Origin: Pelosinus fermentans JBW45
GTDB lineage: Bacteria; Bacillota; Negativicutes; DSM-13327
Length of the DNA stretch: 64,000 nt
Reading direction: 5' to 3'
Assembly (NCBI RefSeq): GCF_000271665.2
Contig: NZ_CP010978.1
Location: 1,706,501-1,770,500 of the forward strand
Shown here piece by piece: positions 43,176-64,000 of this stretch. Made by a program: the position numbers and the translations under genes. The first letter of the stretch is position 1. Each line of letters opens with the position of its first letter. The notes under the pieces were generated by a model. It was not told the origin of the DNA. It did no database searches and worked only from the letters and a program-made list of their open reading frames with translations.

Positions 43176-43862
43176 ATGTCTAGAAAAAGTAAGATTGATC
43201 CAGTAGAAAAAGTAAAAATTGTTGAACGATACCTGAATGGCAAAATTGGCATTAGACAAGCGGGAAGAATTGCAAACATAGCCTACCAAAGTGTGCAGAG
43301 ATGGGTGCGAATATATAAAGCAGAAGGTCCTATCGGATTGCTTAATCAAACCAAGAACCGAAGTTATTCAAAAACGTTAAAGATGAATGCGGTTAATGAC
43401 TATCTGAGTGGAAAAGGATCACTTGGTGACATTTGTCAAAAGTACGATATTCGTTCTAACAAGCAACTTTGTGATTGGATAAAGGTGTATAATTCTGGTG
43501 GAATACTTAAAGAATCCACTGGAGGTACATACATGACAAAAGCAAGAACAACAACTCCTGAAGAACGATTACAGGTAGTCAAGGATTGTTTAATGAATGA
43601 TAAAAACTATGGAGCAATGGCAAGCAAATACAATTGTTCTTATCAACAGATTCGAAACTGGGTCAAAAAGTATGAAGATATGGGAAGGGCTGGACTTGAA
43701 GACAGACGTGGTCACCGTGTTGGTTCGCAGCCAAGTCGTAGTCCAGAAGAAGAGCTACGGGATAAGATTGCAGAGTTGGAACGAATGAACACCGATCTAC
43801 AAATGGAGAATGATCTGTTAAAAAAAGTCAGGGAACTGGAGAGGAGGGATCACTATCTTTAG
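43176..43862 (+). CDS. IS3-family OrfA (DNA-binding transposase subunit)
   Basis: A 228-residue protein with two tandem helix-turn-helix units (about 10-55, RQAGRIANIAYQSVQRWVR; and 125-170, YGAMASKYNCSYQQIRNWV), typical of the IS150-like branch. A leucine-zipper-like C-terminus follows (IAELERMNTDLQMENDLLKK). It recognises the element ends and is fused to OrfB by frameshifting to make the active transposase. Confidence 0.92.
   Translation: MSRKSKIDPVEKVKIVERYLNGKIGIRQAGRIANIAYQSVQRWVRIYKAEGPIGLLNQTKNRSYSKTLKMNAVNDYLSGKGSLGDICQKYDIRSNKQLCDWIKVYNSGGILKESTGGTYMTKARTTTPEERLQVVKDCLMNDKNYGAMASKYNCSYQQIRNWVKKYEDMGRAGLEDRRGHRVGSQPSRSPEEELRDKIAELERMNTDLQMENDLLKKVRELERRDHYL
43820..43827 (+). other. 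Probable -1 programmed frameshift site
   Basis: Seven A's then G lie in the orfA frame as TTA-AAA-AAA-G. A slip of one base back enters the orfB frame, which is open from 43814. GGAGAGGAGGG follows ten bases later. A-runs of this kind drive OrfAB fusion in IS3 elements. Confidence 0.75.
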
Positions 43863-44755
43863 TACAGTACCTTACAGCCTATATAGCTATCAAGGAATTA
43901 TCTTCAACCAAAGGCTATCCAACAAAAAAATTATGTAAATATCTTAAAATCACGCGCTCTGCTTATTATCGTTGGCTCAATCATCCAAAGAGTGATAGTG
44001 AAATTAAGAATGAACGTATTTCGGAAGAAATATATACTATCCATAAACAACATCCAGATATGGGATACCGCCGTATTCGTGATGAGCTGGATGTAAATTA
44101 CAAAATTGTTGTGAACGATAAACGCGTTCTTCGTATTTGCAGAAACAAAGGAATTCAATCCACCATTAAATGGAGACCAAAAAGTTGTACCAGATCTGCT
44201 CGAAATCCGGACCACATCGCAAAAAACTATTTAAACCGTGAATTCCACGCTGATATGCCTAATGAAAAATGGCTTACGGATGTTTCTGAATTCAAATATT
44301 ATATCGGTATTGAAGTTCACAAGATATATCTGAGTGCCATCCTGGATTTATACGACCGCAGAATTGTAGCCTTTAAAATTAGTAATCATAACGATAATCC
44401 ATTGGTTATGGATACTTTTGATGAAGCTGTTCGTTTGGAACCGGAGGCTCATCCGCTGTTCCACAGCGACCGTGGTTATCAATATACAAGTGCTCAATTC
44501 CATATGCGTTTAAAAGATCATCACATGAAGCAAAGTATGTCCAGAGTAGCCCATTGCATTGACAATGGACCAATGGAAGGATTTTGGGGAATTTTGAAAC
44601 GAGAAATGTATTATGGTCATCGTTTCACTAATAGAGATAATCTAGTGGAGGCTATAACTGATTACATAGATTACTACAATAATCGACGTCTGCAACGCAA
44701 GTTAAATGTAATGACACCAATGGCATACCATAATCATTATAGATTGGCAGCATAA
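43826..44755 (+). CDS. IS3-family OrfB (DDE transposase, made by frameshift)
   Basis: About 309 residues of rve-type integrase core in the -1 frame relative to orfA. An HTH_21 region (KQHPDMGYRRIRDEL) precedes the catalytic domain, with DDE residues in WLTDVSEF, FHSDRGYQY and the Glu of GILKREMYYG. There is no ATG or other good start near the frame's beginning; the first ATG (44060) would remove the N-terminal part, which supports frameshift expression. Confidence 0.9.
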   Translation, partial: SQGTGEEGSLSLVQYLTAYIAIKELSSTKGYPTKKLCKYLKITRSAYYRWLNHPKSDSEIKNERISEEIYTIHKQHPDMGYRRIRDELDVNYKIVVNDKRVLRICRNKGIQSTIKWRPKSCTRSARNPDHIAKNYLNREFHADMPNEKWLTDVSEFKYYIGIEVHKIYLSAILDLYDRRIVAFKISNHNDNPLVMDTFDEAVRLEPEAHPLFHSDRGYQYTSAQFHMRLKDHHMKQSMSRVAHCIDNGPMEGFWGILKREMYYGHRFTNRDNLVEAITDYIDYYNNRRLQRKLNVMTPMAYHNHYRLAA

Positions 44756-46909: not shown

Positions 46910-46954
46910 TATCATAAATATTTACAATTATATTAGAGAAAGAAAAAATATGAA

Positions 46955-47030
46955 TAATTGGCAAACTTATCGAAAGATAAGGACGCAAAGCCGTGGGTCT
47001 AAAGAGCTATTCTATGACAGCCTGGTTGCA
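46955..47030 (+). promoter_or_regulatory. Cyclic-di-GMP-I (GEMM-I) riboswitch of the Tad pilus operon
   Basis: The aptamer shows the invariant blocks: GGCAAAC, then stem CTTATC with GAAA tetraloop and GATAAG, then GGACGCAAAGCCGTGGGTCT, the second stem and CAGCCTGGTTGC. All these match GEMM-I, which binds cyclic-di-GMP. The 3' end of the aptamer reaches into the terminator stem that follows, so ligand binding could alter termination. It lies upstream of cpaB. Its ON or OFF direction needs folding. Confidence 0.93.
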
Positions 47031-47084
47031 TAAATAAATGATATACATTTAGTTGTATCCTTTTTATGCAACCGGGTATTTTTA
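47022..47084 (+). terminator. Riboswitch expression-platform terminator (Tad operon)
   Basis: CTGGTTGCATAAA pairs with TTTATGCAACCGG (one G-T pair) over a long AT-rich loop, followed by GTATTTTTACG. Its left arm overlaps the last bases of the aptamer. Confidence 0.8.
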
Positions 47085-47149
47085 CGTTTTAGATAAAAGG
47101 GATATTTTGGTAAAAAAATTACATATGATTGTTGCTGGGAGGATTTATT

Positions 47150-57198: not shown

Positions 57199-57238
57199 AT
57201 CAATGCTCCCTTGGAGTTTGGTTTGATAAAAATAATAA

Positions 57239-57315
57239 TGAAAAAGGCAAACTTATTGAAAGGTAAGGACGCAAAGCCATGGGTCTACATGCATTTTGTA
57301 TATGACTGCCAGGTT
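57239..57315 (+). promoter_or_regulatory. Cyclic-di-GMP-I (GEMM-I) riboswitch of the polysaccharide operon
   Basis: The invariant blocks are GGCAAAC, stem CTTATT with GAAA tetraloop and GGTAAG, and GGACGCAAAGCCATGGGTCT, followed by the second stem and GACTGCCAGGTTGC. It is clearly related to the aptamer at 46955. A strong terminator begins inside its 3' end. The first downstream gene starts about 200 bases later (57514). Confidence 0.93.
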
Positions 57316-57340
57316 GCAATTGCAACTTGGCAGTTTTTTG
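57306..57340 (+). terminator. Riboswitch expression-platform terminator (polysaccharide operon)
   Basis: CTGCCAGGTTGCA pairs with TGCAACTTGGCAG (one G-T pair) with almost no loop, followed by TTTTTTG. The left arm includes bases of the aptamer 3' end, so aptamer and terminator should compete. Confidence 0.88.
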
Positions 57341-57513: not shown

Positions 57514-58614
57514 GTGAAAAAAATTTTAATATTACTATTTGCCATGGCAGCGGTAATTAGTACATCTACAGGGAATCCCTTTGATGGTGAGTGGATGGGA
57601 AACGTGGTATATGCTTCAAACCAGCTTGATAGTGATATTGAATCAAAAACAATAAGTAAGGTGAATGATACTGATGCTGATCAAAAAGCAATCCTTAATA
57701 CAGGTTATATTGACCAGGAAACATACACAGCCCTCATAGATGAGTTGATGCATGTAGGACAGCGTAGTAATCGCTTGGACAACAAGGTGAAGTTTGACGG
57801 TGAAATTCGTTATCATTATGCATTTAACAGTGGGTCTGAACGCTGGAAGCGAGATTCTTCTGGCATTCGTATGTATCTTAGAGCTGATGCTGCACTTAAT
57901 AAAGATTGGCGTGCGTATAGTATTTTGGAAGGTAGAAAGAATTTAGTGCATTACAATAATGAATTTAAACTTTCACGTTTATATGTGGTGGGAAAGGTTG
58001 GTACATCCACAGTGAAAGCAGGATCTTTTGGATATCTAATGGCAGAAGGAAATATTTATGATAGTGGCTTTGATGGTATCCGGGTTGATTTTGAGGGACC
58101 AGTAAAATACACATTGAGCTACGGAGAAACCAATGATACAAAAGACACAACGATTGCCACAGCACGGTATGAGGATTTTGACTATAATTTAGAAGCTGGC
58201 ATGTATCATTATCAGACGGATGACAGTAATCAAAATACAATCTGGACTCTTGGTGGAAATTATAATTTCAGTAATTTTAGCATAGGAACGATGGTCTTGA
58301 GTTCCAGCCTAAAGGATCGGAATGGGAATGACAACGGCTATGTATTAAACCTTAACTATGGTGTTTTAAAATCATGGAGAGCGGGAACCTATGAAATATT
58401 TGCCAAATATTACAATCAGTCCAGAGGAACGTATATTGCCCATGGGATGAATGGCGTAGGAGGTTCAATGCAGGGGTTTAAGGGCTATGGAGTGGGAATG
58501 AATTATGCACTCAAAGAAAATCTTGTTGCAGGTATAGAATATTACAGATTATCAGATAAAATTTCTAAGGATAAAGGTGATAGTTGGTGGAGTCAATTAA
58601 CGTATTATTTCTAA
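57514..58614 (+). CDS. Outer-membrane beta-barrel protein, putative polysaccharide porin
   Basis: A 366-residue exported protein. A signal peptide (about 1-33, ending VVYA) leads to a short helical region (YIDQETYTALIDELMHVGQR) and then a long series of alternating strands rich in Tyr, Asn and Gly. The last residues are QLTYYF, ending in Phe, the outer-membrane barrel signature. No SLH domain is seen. The start is GTG with GGATGGTG upstream. It is the first gene after the riboswitch. By analogy with AlgE-type exporters it could let the polymer out; that is inference, as no sequence match is claimed. Confidence 0.75.
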   Translation: MKKILILLFAMAAVISTSTGNPFDGEWMGNVVYASNQLDSDIESKTISKVNDTDADQKAILNTGYIDQETYTALIDELMHVGQRSNRLDNKVKFDGEIRYHYAFNSGSERWKRDSSGIRMYLRADAALNKDWRAYSILEGRKNLVHYNNEFKLSRLYVVGKVGTSTVKAGSFGYLMAEGNIYDSGFDGIRVDFEGPVKYTLSYGETNDTKDTTIATARYEDFDYNLEAGMYHYQTDDSNQNTIWTLGGNYNFSNFSIGTMVLSSSLKDRNGNDNGYVLNLNYGVLKSWRAGTYEIFAKYYNQSRGTYIAHGMNGVGGSMQGFKGYGVGMNYALKENLVAGIEYYRLSDKISKDKGDSWWSQLTYYF

Positions 58615-58642: not shown

Positions 58643-59965
58643 ATGGAAATATTTGAAAGAATTCGGACAAAAAAAGATTTCTTAGCAGTTGTCGGGCTTG
58701 GATATGTAGGTTTACCAGTTGCTGTTGCTTTTGCTGAGAAAGTTAAAACCCTGGGAGTTGATATTAATCAAGAAAAGATTGATATTTACAAAAAGGGAAT
58801 TGATCCTACCAATGAAATTGGCGATGAAGAAATTCAACGTACAACTTTGGAATTTACCTGTGATCCAACGAGGCTAAAAGAAGCTAAGGTTATCATTGTT
58901 GCTGTGCCGACACCTGTCAATGGAGATAAGACGCCCAATTTGGCACCGATTATCAATGCCAGCAAAATGATAGGGGAAAATTTATCTCAAGGCAGTATTG
59001 TTGTTTTTGAATCCACAGTGTATCCAGGGGTTACAGAAGATATTTGTGCTCCAATTTTAGAAAAAGAGTCGGGTATGGTATGCGGCAAGGATTTTAAAAT
59101 CGGCTATTCGCCGGAGCGAATTAATCCTGGGGATCGAGTACATACGCTTAAAAACATTCAAAAAATTGTAGCAGGTATGGACGAAGAAACTCTGGAGAAT
59201 ATTGCAGCCATTTATGAGCTGATTATTAAAGCTGGTGTTTATAAAGCGCCCAGCATTAAAGTTGCAGAAGCGACAAAATTGGCTGAAAATGCCCAAAGGG
59301 ATATTAACATCGCCTTTATGAATGAATTGGCAATGGCCTTTGATCGTATGGGGATCAATACCAAAGAGGTTATTGATGCCATGAATACCAAATGGAATGC
59401 TTTAGGTTTTTATCCAGGATTAGTAGGTGGTCATTGTATTGGTGTCGATCCCTACTACTTTATTTATCAGGCCGAAATGTTGGGGTATCACTCGCAGATT
59501 ATTGCCGCTGGCAGAAAAGTTAATGATAATATGGGGATTTTTGTCACTGACAACATCATAAAAAAAATGATTCAATCCAATATAAATGTCAAGAAATCTA
59601 ATATTTATATTATGGGTATCACTTTCAAAGAGAATTGTCCGGATATGCGCAATTCAAAAGCGGTAGATGTTTGTAAGCACCTTGCTACCTATGGAATCAA
59701 AGTAAATGTGGTAGACCCTATTGCCGACAAAACAGAGTTTAGAAAAGAGTTTGATATGGAATTAGTAGACATAAAAGATATTCGAAACGCTGATTGTCTG
59801 GTCTTTTTAGTAGCGCATCAACAATTTAAGAATTTGCGGACGACAGACTTGAGAAAGTTATTTAAACAGCCAAGATTACAAACAAAATATGTCTTTATTG
59901 ATATCAAGAGTATATTTGACCAAAAAGCCATAGAAAAAGAGGGGTATTCCTACTGGAGTCTTTAA
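58643..59965 (+). CDS. UDP-sugar 6-dehydrogenase (TviB/WbpO-like)
   Basis: A 440-residue nucleotide-sugar dehydrogenase that oxidises a UDP-hexose or UDP-N-acetylhexosamine to its uronic acid. The NAD site is AVVGLGYVGLPVAVAFA, the catalytic Cys is in GGHCIGVDPYYF and the central domain has EATKLAENAQRDINIAF. Its overall style is closer to TviB/WbpO (UDP-GalNAc/GlcNAc dehydrogenases) than to UDP-glucose dehydrogenase, but the substrate is unproven. It should supply the uronic acid precursor for the polymer. Confidence 0.88.
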   Translation: MEIFERIRTKKDFLAVVGLGYVGLPVAVAFAEKVKTLGVDINQEKIDIYKKGIDPTNEIGDEEIQRTTLEFTCDPTRLKEAKVIIVAVPTPVNGDKTPNLAPIINASKMIGENLSQGSIVVFESTVYPGVTEDICAPILEKESGMVCGKDFKIGYSPERINPGDRVHTLKNIQKIVAGMDEETLENIAAIYELIIKAGVYKAPSIKVAEATKLAENAQRDINIAFMNELAMAFDRMGINTKEVIDAMNTKWNALGFYPGLVGGHCIGVDPYYFIYQAEMLGYHSQIIAAGRKVNDNMGIFVTDNIIKKMIQSNINVKKSNIYIMGITFKENCPDMRNSKAVDVCKHLATYGIKVNVVDPIADKTEFRKEFDMELVDIKDIRNADCLVFLVAHQQFKNLRTTDLRKLFKQPRLQTKYVFIDIKSIFDQKAIEKEGYSYWSL

Positions 59966-59983
59966 TTATAAGGGGTGATATAC

Positions 59984-62635
59984 GTGAAAACTAAGATAAT
60001 AGTATCATCACTGGTTCTATTTATCGGTGCTTGCCTCATAGGGATATTTTTCTTTAAAGACTTTTTTACAGCGCCGACAGGCGGCGACTATCGTAACATT
60101 ACGGATATAGAAAGTTCTTATAATGCAGAGGCAGAAATTGCACAAGCATTAGCTAAAATGAAAAGTAGTCAAGACAAAGCAACTGTAATCATGCGTAGCA
60201 ATAGTGGCCAGCGTCAAATTGCTCTAACTTTTGATGGGCTAACAGATAGCACTAGCATGCAGCAAATTTTAGACCTATTAAAAAAACATAATGTGAAAGC
60301 AACATTTTTTGTAGATGGGATGCAGACTGCCGAAGATCCGCAAACCGTTGTAAATATTAAAAAAGCAGGGCATAAAATAGAAAACTATTCACTTTTAGGC
60401 ATTAGTAAAATGGAAGCTCTACCTGTGGAAAGAGTAGTAAAAGATTTCAGCCGGGCACAAAAAATCATTAAAGTGATTACAGATCAAGGGCCAAATCTTT
60501 TAAAATGCAATGATACCAACTATACGGATCAATTATTACAAGCAGCAAAGGCCTGTGGTTTTAATAGTGTGGTGAAAAGTGATGTTTTTTTGAATGTGAA
60601 ACAAATAAATTCCCTTTCGGCAGCGGATGTTTTTGTCGGTAAGCTTAAACCGGGAAGCATCCTTTCCGTTAAACTAAAACCCAATACTGAACGGATTGTA
60701 AATGAACCAGGAAAAACAGATTTACGACCGGCAATTGACAAACAGCCTGGATTAAAAGAACTGCCACAAGAGGCAAACCTGGGAGAAAAGGAAACTATCG
60801 CTGCGGTAGAAAGACTTTTAACTGCTATTAACAAGGCAAATTATACTACGGTCTATGTAGAAGATTTCGCAACTGACAGCAGTATGCAAAATCCAGTAAA
60901 AACGACTTTTTTTCCAAATAGTATCAACAACGTTAAAGAAAGTACTCACTACTCGTTTTTTATAAAAATGGCTTCTTTCCTACAAGAAGAATTTACGACT
61001 TTATTTATTGGCCGTACAGCTTATGCGGCAGAGAGTGTAAATAGCGAGGCACAAGAAATAAAACTGATTTCAACCACAGAGCCTGCTCTTTCTTATACCT
61101 TCGGGGGATTAGCAAATGAAACAGTGGTCAATGATGTACTCACAAGGTTACATCGTCTAGGCATTAAAGCAACCTTCTTTGTAGCGGAGGTAGAAATGAG
61201 AAAGTACCCTGAAACACTGCGAAGAATCATTGAAAATGGACACGAAATTGGTATTGCGATCAGACCTAAGGATGGGGAGACCGCTGATGAGACGCGCAGT
61301 ACAATTCTGCGTGATAGTAAGAAACTGCAAGAACAGTTTGGTGTGGCTACGAACTTGGTAAAACAGCCATGGGGCGCCGTATCGGATACAACTAAAGAAG
61401 TGATTTTTAGTTTGGGCTATAAATTGATTGGTCAATCTGTCAATGTTGTTCAAAACAAACATAAAGATTACACTTCGGCAGATCAAGTGATGGCTGAAAT
61501 TTTCGGAAAATCCATGTTGTCTTTAGCACGGGGACAAATTGTACATTTCAGAATGGATTATTATGCTAATGATCGATTGGTTGGCGATTTGGCTGAAATA
61601 ATCAAGCAACGCAAAGTGGATAACATTGCCTATGCAACATTTTATGATAATCCTGTCAATAATTTATCGAATGACTCTCAGTATACGATTAAGCCAGTAG
61701 GAGAAATTCTGAATAATACTAGATTTATTTATCGATACCCGGTAGATCTGGCAACTGTTCCTGCACATCTAAAAAATGATGGATCTGAGCAAATGATTGA
61801 TACACACAATTTTCTGGCAGAAGCCTCTAAACGCTATATAGGAAACAGGGATGTTAATGACAATAACAATATGCTAGGTTTCTCAAAAATGGATACTCGT
61901 CGTCTTGATAAGAGTGGATTGATACACACAAAAGACAATGTTATTTTCATTACCTTCGACGACTGGGGGACGGATGCGTCAGTCAATAAAATACTATATG
62001 TCTTGCGCAAGCACAATGTACCGGCAACATTTTTTATTCTCACCCATAATGTAGTAAATAACCCAAATCTGCTTCGGACGATTGCCATGCAAGGTCATAA
62101 TATTGGAGATCATTCTGACAAACATAAACCTATGGTAGTTCGTGATCCCAAAACAGGTAAGCAAGTCAATACTCAGGGTAAAGAAGAGTACATTCAGGAG
62201 CTTGCTACATCCTATCAAAAATTGTTAACTATTACAGGAGATGTAAACGTTAATGGGAAACCAATGTTAACCAAATTTTTTCGCCCGCCAACGCTGGCAA
62301 TCAGCAAGATGGGAATTGAGGTGCTGTTTGAAACTGGTTACGAATTTATTGTTTCCGGTTCGTGCAACACAAATGATTATAGAGCAAAAAATGTTCCTCA
62401 ACTTGAAAAAATAATTGAAGATGGAGTATATACAGAAAATGGGGAAGTAAGAAAAGGCGCTATTTTGGTTCTGCATATGTTAGATAGTGCTGCGTACACT
62501 GCAATAGCCTTAGATATACTGCTGACTGCAAATGAGGCCAAAGCAGATTCTGATCCTTCCAAATTTAAAGTCGGCAGGTTATCAGACTACTTAATTGATG
62601 GCTATTCGCAAATCAGCCGAAAATCACTGAAATGA
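59984..62635 (+). CDS. Triple NodB-domain polysaccharide deacetylase
   Basis: An 883-residue membrane-anchored protein (helix at about 5-25) with three NodB-like regions. Domain 3 (about 655-840) keeps catalytic DD in ITFDDWG near 657, the metal pair in HSDKH near 709, FFRPPT near 765 and LHMLDS near 828, so it is likely active. Domain 1 (about 75-200, ALTFDGLTD) and domain 2 (about 365-550, SYTFGGLAN) have lost the second Asp (domain 1) or both (domain 2) and the HxxxH site. The start is GTG at 59984 with AAGGGGTG upstream. It would de-N-acetylate an exported polymer. Confidence 0.88.
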   Translation: MKTKIIVSSLVLFIGACLIGIFFFKDFFTAPTGGDYRNITDIESSYNAEAEIAQALAKMKSSQDKATVIMRSNSGQRQIALTFDGLTDSTSMQQILDLLKKHNVKATFFVDGMQTAEDPQTVVNIKKAGHKIENYSLLGISKMEALPVERVVKDFSRAQKIIKVITDQGPNLLKCNDTNYTDQLLQAAKACGFNSVVKSDVFLNVKQINSLSAADVFVGKLKPGSILSVKLKPNTERIVNEPGKTDLRPAIDKQPGLKELPQEANLGEKETIAAVERLLTAINKANYTTVYVEDFATDSSMQNPVKTTFFPNSINNVKESTHYSFFIKMASFLQEEFTTLFIGRTAYAAESVNSEAQEIKLISTTEPALSYTFGGLANETVVNDVLTRLHRLGIKATFFVAEVEMRKYPETLRRIIENGHEIGIAIRPKDGETADETRSTILRDSKKLQEQFGVATNLVKQPWGAVSDTTKEVIFSLGYKLIGQSVNVVQNKHKDYTSADQVMAEIFGKSMLSLARGQIVHFRMDYYANDRLVGDLAEIIKQRKVDNIAYATFYDNPVNNLSNDSQYTIKPVGEILNNTRFIYRYPVDLATVPAHLKNDGSEQMIDTHNFLAEASKRYIGNRDVNDNNNMLGFSKMDTRRLDKSGLIHTKDNVIFITFDDWGTDASVNKILYVLRKHNVPATFFILTHNVVNNPNLLRTIAMQGHNIGDHSDKHKPMVVRDPKTGKQVNTQGKEEYIQELATSYQKLLTITGDVNVNGKPMLTKFFRPPTLAISKMGIEVLFETGYEFIVSGSCNTNDYRAKNVPQLEKIIEDGVYTENGEVRKGAILVLHMLDSAAYTAIALDILLTANEAKADSDPSKFKVGRLSDYLIDGYSQISRKSLK

Positions 62636-62751
62636 AATAATAATGATCATGTTTAATGCAGCAAAAGTATAAATTATCATAATGACATGATAAAAGTGAT
62701 TGATTATATGCTGCTCTAATCAGCAGCGTAGAAATGGCAAGGAAGTGGATG

Positions 62752-64000
62752 ATGGATAAGATAAAAACAGAAGAGGATATTTTACTTGTTGCCAAACCCG
62801 ATCGCAGGCTGATTTCTAAAGTACCTGATAAAGAAAAATTGCGTTCGAATATAGACAGGCGCCGCGTAAAGGGAAATGAGGACCCCAACGATATTTCAAC
62901 TCTTGTAGAAAATGAAAAAATGGGCAGACGCTACTTAGTGAATTATGATGTTTCAATCCGATATGTTTCTAATGGGAAAGAAGTAACATGTCTCGCGAAA
63001 GGCGTTGATATATCGACCACTGGTATGTTACTGGAAGTTTCTCCGGAAGTGGCTCGGGGATTGAGCCTGGCATCAAAAATCAAACTGAAGTTTGTCATAA
63101 CGCCCGGCTCTATGCCGGAAGGTTATGAGATGAAAGTTGATATTGCCGCCCATTATATCCGTTTTGACAAAAACGCAGAAGGGAAAACCTTGTGTGGAGT
63201 GGAATTTATCGAATCACTTGCTCAGTATGCAACAAAGAAGAAAAATTGGTATATGCTTTCCGCCGCCTCATTTTTTCTATTCTTTATTACTGCCTGCATT
63301 CTTCTGATGAGGGCAGAAAGTGTGCTTTATTTTAAATTTAATAAAATCTTGTATATGTACAGTATTATTGCAGCAACATTCTTGCTTACTCGATATCTGT
63401 TTGGTTCTTTTTATCGACCAGTTCCTATTGACAAAGATTTTACGCCTGGGGTGACAATTATTGTTCCTTGTTTCAATGAGGAACAATGGATACAAAGAAC
63501 AATTTTAGGCTGTATTAATCAAGATTATCCTATCCATAAACTAGAAGTAATTGTTGTAGATGATTGCTCTAATGATAAATCCGTTGAAAAAATTAAAGAG
63601 ATCGTAGAAGAACTGAAGATTAAAGAACAACGCTATGATATTGAAAACAGGCTTCATTATATTGTTCAGGAAACAAATGCAGGTAAAAGGGAGGCATTGG
63701 CAAAAGGAGCACTAATGGCACAGCATGAATTAATTGTGTTTGTTGATTCTGACAGCTTCTTAGATCCTTTTGCCATTCGAAATATTGTCCAGCCCTTTAA
63801 AGATACAAAAATGGGCGGCGTTTCCGGCAGAACCGACGTTGCCAATACCTATACCAATGCACTTACGAAAATGCAGGCTGTACGCTATTACATTGCCTTT
63901 CGTATCATGAAGGCAGCAGAAAGCTATTTTGATGCAGTCACTTGTTTATCTGGTCCTCTGTCTTGTTACAGAAAAGATTTGCTTGTTAAATATATGGATG
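62752..64000 (+). CDS. PilZ-fused, hyaluronan-synthase-like glycosyltransferase (3'-truncated by the window)
   Basis: Reads to the window end. The N-terminal 60 residues are Lys/Arg-rich; a PilZ-like domain (about 60-165) has DISTTGM, matching D/NxSxxG, while the RxxxR motif is weak (RRYLV). Two membrane helices (about 168-190 and 203-220) precede a GT2 domain with IIVPCFNEEQWIQ, VIVVDDCSND and VFVDSDSF (DxD), then QAVRYYIAFRIMKAAESYFD and CLSGPLSCYRKDLL, which closely resemble hyaluronan/chitin synthases (NodC/HasA). It is thus a processive membrane polymerase likely tuned by cyclic-di-GMP. AAGGAAG precedes the ATG at 62752; 62749 or 62734 are possible. The QxxRW end lies beyond the window. 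Confidence 0.85.
   Translation, partial: MDKIKTEEDILLVAKPDRRLISKVPDKEKLRSNIDRRRVKGNEDPNDISTLVENEKMGRRYLVNYDVSIRYVSNGKEVTCLAKGVDISTTGMLLEVSPEVARGLSLASKIKLKFVITPGSMPEGYEMKVDIAAHYIRFDKNAEGKTLCGVEFIESLAQYATKKKNWYMLSAASFFLFFITACILLMRAESVLYFKFNKILYMYSIIAATFLLTRYLFGSFYRPVPIDKDFTPGVTIIVPCFNEEQWIQRTILGCINQDYPIHKLEVIVVDDCSNDKSVEKIKEIVEELKIKEQRYDIENRLHYIVQETNAGKREALAKGALMAQHELIVFVDSDSFLDPFAIRNIVQPFKDTKMGGVSGRTDVANTYTNALTKMQAVRYYIAFRIMKAAESYFDAVTCLSGPLSCYRKDLLVKYMD

Follow-up and report, generated by a model that had tools for sequence, protein, structure and literature searches.

Organization of the locus

The window analysed here is a stretch of 64,000 nucleotides from Pelosinus fermentans JBW45 (G000:C1:1706501-1770500 within a single-contig assembly of 5.38 Mb). 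Its nearest relatives are Pelosinus, which makes the host a diderm member of the Negativicutes (Firmicutes). At the end of the window the plus strand carries the gene of a PilZ-GT2 synthase (62734..64000), whose frame is cut by the window end and was completed from the assembly up to the window-equivalent position 64575, giving 613 aa. The start was called at the ATG at 62734, with an uncertainty of 15–18 bases: the ATGs at 62749, immediately preceded by AGGAAG, and at 62752, the choice of the preliminary description of this DNA, are alternatives. The protein is 94% identical to the copy in P. fermentans UBA6563; one annotated plasmid homologue bears the name "glycosyltransferase family 2 protein" only. 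Beyond this frame, to which the preliminary description was limited, lie a conserved operon of six genes in Pelosinus, a c-di-GMP riboswitch and an outer-membrane module found in diderms only.

The first gene of the operon (57514..58614, plus strand) codes for a putative outer-membrane beta-barrel protein of 366 aa. It has no Pfam match, but shows a conserved barrel-like C-terminal region ending in YYF. Its relatives bear N-terminal TPR or other modules, and in Sporomusa TPRs are fused to it as in known exporters. This protein is likely to be the exporter of the polymer. The JBW45 copy is short of approximately 100 residues which in other Pelosinus copies are present between signal peptide and barrel. 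The second gene (58643..59965, plus strand) encodes a TviB-like nucleotide-sugar dehydrogenase of the UDP-HexNAc C6 dehydrogenase class, with 441.9 bits for TviB (NF011729; below the cut-off of 592) versus 237 for WecC and 156 for the UDP-glucose dehydrogenase TuaD. The dehydrogenase belongs to the same class in ten other operons scanned, TviB giving the top score in nine of them. It is followed by a membrane-anchored triple NodB-type polysaccharide deacetylase (59975..62635, plus strand; PF01522 in three stretches, 7e-59), in which the third domain retains TFDD and HSDKH while the first two are degenerate (TFDG, TFGG).

Conservation of the operon in Firmicutes

Across Firmicutes the operon is conserved with a NodB-type deacetylase, often the TviB-like dehydrogenase, the PilZ-GT2 synthase, a PgaB-like protein and a GH18 protein. 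Among 79 synthase loci a PgaB-like gene occurs in 78, a NodB-type deacetylase gene in 77 and a GH18 gene in 74, most absences being due to contig ends. Judged by their motifs, the third NodB domain and the GH18 protein are suggested to be active. Where enough upstream sequence was available, the dehydrogenase gene is found in 30 of 31 diderm but 15 of 30 monoderm loci, and the barrel gene in all 31 diderm Negativicutes but in none of the 30 monoderm loci, a contrast for which the Fisher value overstates the independence of loci that are kin. In a quick tree, with L090 as a long-branch outgroup, the barrel-bearing loci form one nested Negativicutes group; the barrel-less rows within this group are two short loci (L006, L086) and a short MAG contig (L029).

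Several loci have peculiarities of their own. L029 and L030 are MAGs titled Acholeplasmataceae, which group in the diderm Negativicutes clade and of which L030 has the barrel gene; these are probably misnamed or chimeric bins. In one Lachnospiraceae locus (L054, 2838-6269), where a PgaB-like gene of its own was not detected, the PilZ-GT2 frame extends over 1144 aa, hence the two genes may be fused. Two long collagen-like GXT-repeat proteins are encoded on the minus strand shortly 3' of the operon, beyond the window (L003, 13538-17805), and similar genes adjoin the operon in L005 and L007.

The glycosyltransferase and its probable product

Pfam assigns residues 66-160 of the synthase to PilZ and residues 238-480 to GT2. 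The gene was completed and its structure modelled, as the preliminary description had proposed, and the full-length model (AlphaFold2, 80 sequences) has a mean pLDDT of 87.3 and a pTM of 0.86. Two helices (162-198 and 204-225) lie between both domains, only the first of which passes a simple hydropathy cut-off. Provided that both helices span the membrane, as in hyaluronan synthases (HAS), the PilZ and GT domains would both be located on the cytoplasmic side.

Among solved structures, the GT2 part comes nearest to HAS (phmmer 4.6e-35 to 8smm). In Foldseek, HAS occupy all of ranks 1-13 for the GT2/membrane part, and VIA Z-scores range from 25.9 to 30.1 across 365-388 residues, comprising the HAS-like fold and channel. 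The D,D,D,QxxRW residues and a C-terminal WGTR motif are kept at each position in all 84 homologues. The motifs CLSGPLSCYRKDLL and AAESYFD are found within the GT2 domain as well. They had been taken as near-diagnostic of hyaluronan/chitin synthases; HAS is indeed nearest, but in view of the TviB-like dehydrogenase their diagnostic value was overstated. Against the NCBIfam models the synthase scores best with NodC (TIGR04242, 182 bits; equivalog cut-off 550) and second-best with PgaC/IcaA (TIGR03937, 115 bits; cut-off 422). BcsA/CelA (TIGR03030) gives 35 bits, with a cut-off of 699, and the PilZ domain is N-terminal here, not C-terminal.

The synthase very probably produces a biofilm polymer of amino sugars and exports it. 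The product is probably one that contains an aminouronic acid where the dehydrogenase occurs and that becomes part-deacetylated outside the membrane. A serious possibility, somewhat short of an even chance in our view, is that the enzyme makes a chitin-like or PNAG-like amino-sugar homopolymer and that the dehydrogenase contributes to a side modification or to a different pathway. The ranking of NodC and PgaC/IcaA, the PgaB-like and GH18 partners and the lack of the dehydrogenase in 15 of 30 monoderm loci would all fit such a homopolymer, but both scores stay far under their equivalog cut-offs, the dehydrogenase is retained in nearly every diderm locus and its gene sits between the deacetylase and synthase genes in Paenibacillaceae and Lactobacillus.

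The N-terminal PilZ domain and the arginine-rich tail

The PilZ domain, encoded at 62929..63213 (plus strand), contains R66 and the motif D92-x-S94-x-x-G97. Compared with PF07238 the synthase itself is marginal (19.6 bits for the full-length protein, 23.1 for the isolated domain and 23.4 in the genome search; cut-off 22.5), while 78 out of 78 homologues scanned match (best 1.4e-12, counting matches at E up to 1). PDB sequences searched with an N-terminal profile yielded nothing useful, the single match having an E-value of 0.61; therefore the PilZ call is based on Pfam and the fold. When the AlphaFold2 model of the isolated domain was compared with known structures by Foldseek and VIA, PilZ proteins led, many of them as c-di-GMP complexes. 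The model has the six-stranded beta-barrel of PilZ, with MotI as the top match (Z 10.8, 97 residues, 3.2 A); YcgR, Alg44, BcsA and other PilZ proteins follow at Z 7-9.6, and unrelated split barrels from about Z 7.7. The N-terminal PilZ ahead of a HAS/NodC-like GT2, as initially described, is real, and its order is unlike that of BcsA, with a C-terminal PilZ, and of Alg44, a separate protein.

The DISTTGM sequence noticed in the preliminary description represents the [D/N]xSxxG motif, and R66, [D/N]92, S94 and G97 are invariant in 84 out of 84 homologues, within a domain whose mean column identity is 28%. The RxxxR motif, which had been called weak, has lost its first arginine family-wide: it is present in none of the 84 homologues, while the second, R66, is present in all of them. 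A K or R occurs at position 61 or 62 in 54 of 84, position 62 never being Arg. In the VIA alignments model residue 61 corresponds to residue 16 of Alg44 and model residue 62 to residue 580 of BcsA; from these ranges it follows that R66 is equivalent to Alg44 R21 and BcsA R584, and K62 to Alg44 R17 and BcsA R580.

The PilZ domain is preceded by a tail rich in arginine, DRR(x11)R(xxxx)RR, which spans residues 23-43 (62800..62862, plus strand). Its D/E23-R24-R25, R37 and the R42-R43 pair are kept in all 83 homologues holding that part. The full-length model gives residues 11-30 a pLDDT of 74-82, but they reach only 49-58 if the N-terminal region is modelled by itself using a matching alignment. 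This difference suggests that the tail packs against the membrane part or the GT rather than against PilZ. In BcsA, the pair Arg580-Glu371 keeps the GT shut until c-di-GMP binding (PMC10374906). By analogy, the DRR...R...DRR tail might replace the missing first arginine of RxxxR, or might lock the GT until c-di-GMP binds. When 299 phylum genomes were searched with a profile built on the N-terminal region, 6 had matches, all in open frames of fusion size (623-646 aa), and no stand-alone copy of this domain was seen among the 299. The only other PilZ protein detected in the genome is YcgR-like and belongs to a flagellar/chemotaxis cluster (L004, 6386-7033; genome 2296385-2297032).

The preliminary description had left two options, that the domain binds c-di-GMP differently or that it senses it only loosely. 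The loss of the first arginine throughout the family, together with the retention of R66 and the invariant arginine tail, favours altered binding over loose sensing. Nevertheless, binding of c-di-GMP by this PilZ domain is the least certain step of the mechanism proposed below, because mutating the first arginine of RxxxR in Alg44 abolishes c-di-GMP binding (PMC12564702) and because RiGT2 of Romboutsia, a PilZ-GT2 protein which keeps both motifs, neither binds nor needs c-di-GMP (PMC10374906). The RiGT2 PilZ domain is essential all the same (PMC10374906). Following that precedent, PilZ here could have become a structural or assembly domain, with c-di-GMP acting on the operon via the riboswitch only, and the missing arginine would agree with this. 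However, R66, [D/N]92, S94 and G97 are not obviously needed structurally, yet remain invariant in an otherwise divergent domain, and many homologues without a detectable riboswitch still keep them. We consider a non-binding PilZ unlikely, if by no means far-fetched.

c-di-GMP riboswitches at the head of the operon

In the operon leader, 192 nt 5' of the first gene, a c-di-GMP-I (GEMM) riboswitch aptamer is located at 57236..57321 (plus strand), which exceeds the gathering threshold of Rfam RF01051 (80.3 bits, cut-off 35; E 7.1e-14). It is followed by an intrinsic terminator (57304..57335, plus strand; 14 bp without mismatch and a T-run), whose 5' arm (GACTGCCAGGTTGC) doubles as the aptamer's 3' strand. 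Including the window, a class I riboswitch heads the operon at 14 Sporomusaceae/Negativicutes loci and, furthermore, in Anaerocolumna (L040), Acetobacterium (L045) and Paenibacillus macerans (L084). A class II riboswitch, which is structurally unrelated, takes this position in two Clostridium loci (L047, L079). Altogether, riboswitches are at the operon head in 19 loci from five families. For the R1 model, the RNAalifold structure of which is not the true class-I fold, matches were kept where Rfam agreed or E was < 1e-8. At the thresholds used, no riboswitch was recognised at many Clostridium, Lachnospiraceae, Selenomonas and Paenibacillus loci.

The riboswitches of Fontibacillus/Cohnella (L072, L076, L078) were excluded from the count since other genes intervene before the operon. 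These are of the c-di-GMP-I or I-GGC type and lie at 14-99 in L072 and, both in tandem, at 219-426 in L076 and 5092-5299 in L078; the pair in L076 is directly 5' of a transglutaminase-like gene.

The finding of two unrelated aptamers at the same operon position argues strongly for a response of the operon to c-di-GMP, and does so independently of the PilZ domain. GGDEF genes adjoin the operon in several loci. They also occur in 32 out of 32 host genomes tested, but this genome-wide co-occurrence was set aside as evidence for c-di-GMP sensing, as it discriminates little against a background of 187 out of 198 phylum members. Lactobacillus nasalidis and L. equicursoris (L069, L070) hold the synthase together with 17-18 GGDEF matches each, more than we would have expected for lactobacilli.

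The 5' arm of the terminator overlaps the 3' end of the aptamer in 18 of the 19 leaders, against backgrounds of 13% (random positions) and 16% (shuffled leaders). When the leaders of the window, L005, L012, L013 and others are folded, the terminator takes the 3' strand from the aptamer. With its 5' arm inside the aptamer's own 3' end, the terminator should be blocked by the ligand, and this architecture, from which the polarity is deduced entirely, supports a transcriptional ON switch. The class-I riboswitch Bc1 of B. thuringiensis works at both levels, which makes a more complex action possible for such leaders (PMC11218506). If the riboswitch were an OFF switch or translational, c-di-GMP would lower expression while raising the activity of the enzyme; given the same terminator arrangement in 18 of 19 leaders and with two unrelated aptamer classes, we regard this as rather improbable.

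A second c-di-GMP-I riboswitch with an overlapping terminator is found in the window at 46950-47033 (plus strand, 75.8 bits), directly 5' of a CpaB-like gene at 47129, the apparent start of a Flp/Tad pilus operon. Through their two riboswitches pili and polysaccharide would be co-switched. An IS3-like transposase pair (43176-44755) is located between transporter genes and the Tad pilus locus.

A proposed two-tier control and its relation to known systems

We propose, with a probability of roughly 0.7, that the synthase acts as polymerase in a synthase-dependent exopolysaccharide system which c-di-GMP controls at two tiers, the RNA and the enzyme. At low c-di-GMP the leader RNA would form the terminator and the operon would be off, whereas at high c-di-GMP the aptamer would retain the 5' arm of the terminator, allowing transcription to read through. 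c-di-GMP would then activate the synthase via its N-terminal PilZ domain, resulting in a coherent two-step gate. On the cytoplasmic side the HAS/NodC-like GT2 is predicted to polymerise amino sugars, probably HexNAc, either alone or together with a HexNAc-uronic acid that the TviB-like dehydrogenase would provide, and to thread the chain through its own membrane helices. Outside the membrane, enzymes of the NodB/PgaB type would partly deacetylate the polymer and GH18 would trim it; in diderm hosts the barrel protein would convey it over the outer membrane.

Synthase-dependent, c-di-GMP-controlled exopolysaccharide systems are an already known frame. Chlorella virus HAS, Xenopus HAS1 and NodC share with the synthase the GT2 core, D,D,D,QxxRW, the C-terminal WGTR and the membrane channel topology, but HAS and NodC have no PilZ, and the Pelosinus operon adds NodB, PgaB and GH18 proteins and a TviB-like instead of a UDP-glucose dehydrogenase. 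For the latter reason a hyaluronan product is improbable. A true bacterial hyaluronan synthase (making a GlcA/GlcNAc heteropolymer) with an added PilZ would agree with the closest solved folds, the invariant WGTR and the presence of a nucleotide-sugar dehydrogenase in the operon, but is very hard to reconcile with an identity to HAS of only ~24%, with the class of that dehydrogenase and its absence from half of the monoderm loci, and with several NodB-type deacetylase domains, which to our knowledge hyaluronan systems do not need.

BcsA likewise joins a membrane GT2 and a cytoplasmic PilZ on one polypeptide, but its PilZ is C-terminal with a full RxxxR, whereas that of the synthase is N-terminal, lacks the first arginine and is accompanied by the conserved DRR tail. 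Alg8/Alg44 also combines an N-terminal PilZ sensor serving a GT2 with a dehydrogenase and an outer-membrane export protein; there, however, a protein of its own carries PilZ along with a membrane-fusion domain, and the sugar chemistry differs. The PNAG systems PgaABCD/IcaABCD similarly have a GT2, a PgaB-type deacetylase and, in diderms, an outer-membrane barrel with TPR, but PgaC is without PilZ (c-di-GMP binds PgaC/PgaD) and a TviB-like dehydrogenase is missing. Pel and Pss use other synthases and receptors (PelD, PssE), and we know of no N-terminal PilZ-GT2 fusion in either. Gram-positive Pel (PMC7112168) and Listeria Pss (PMC4125290) also are c-di-GMP-controlled exopolysaccharide operons of Firmicutes. 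RiGT2 is a Firmicute PilZ-GT2 fusion too, but is BcsA-like, with a C-terminal PilZ, a full RxxxR and no response to c-di-GMP (PMC10374906). The gts operon of L. acidophilus was rejected as a described member, since its receptor is PdeB, a degenerate EAL protein, and its glycosyltransferase is separate.

Within the open-access PMC literature, the scope of our search, we found no report of a PilZ-GT2 fusion in the N-terminal order, of the family-wide arginine change and tail, or of a riboswitch and a PilZ protein paired within one operon; nor is this PilZ-GT2 fusion described in the passages retrieved from the Anoxybacillus and Bundalovic-Torma papers. A more far-reaching reading, which we put forward tentatively and hold to be somewhat less likely than not as a whole, would be that of an undescribed, c-di-GMP-activated synthase family spanning monoderm and diderm Firmicutes. 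Its product would be a new part-deacetylated aminouronic-acid exopolysaccharide, controlled twice, by interchangeable class I or II riboswitches and by PilZ, with the GT-docked DRR...R...DRR tail substituting for the first RxxxR arginine as a novel element of binding or gating.

Little is known of c-di-GMP-controlled polymers in Firmicutes, and here two independent lines of sequence evidence tie an operon to c-di-GMP. It is tractable in culturable anaerobes (Pelosinus, Sporomusa, Acetobacterium and Clostridium), and as the same inner-membrane synthase occurs with and without an outer-membrane exporter, it represents a natural experiment. Furthermore, the loss of the first arginine from PilZ, next to a tail of invariant arginines, could expose an alternative wiring from PilZ to the synthase.
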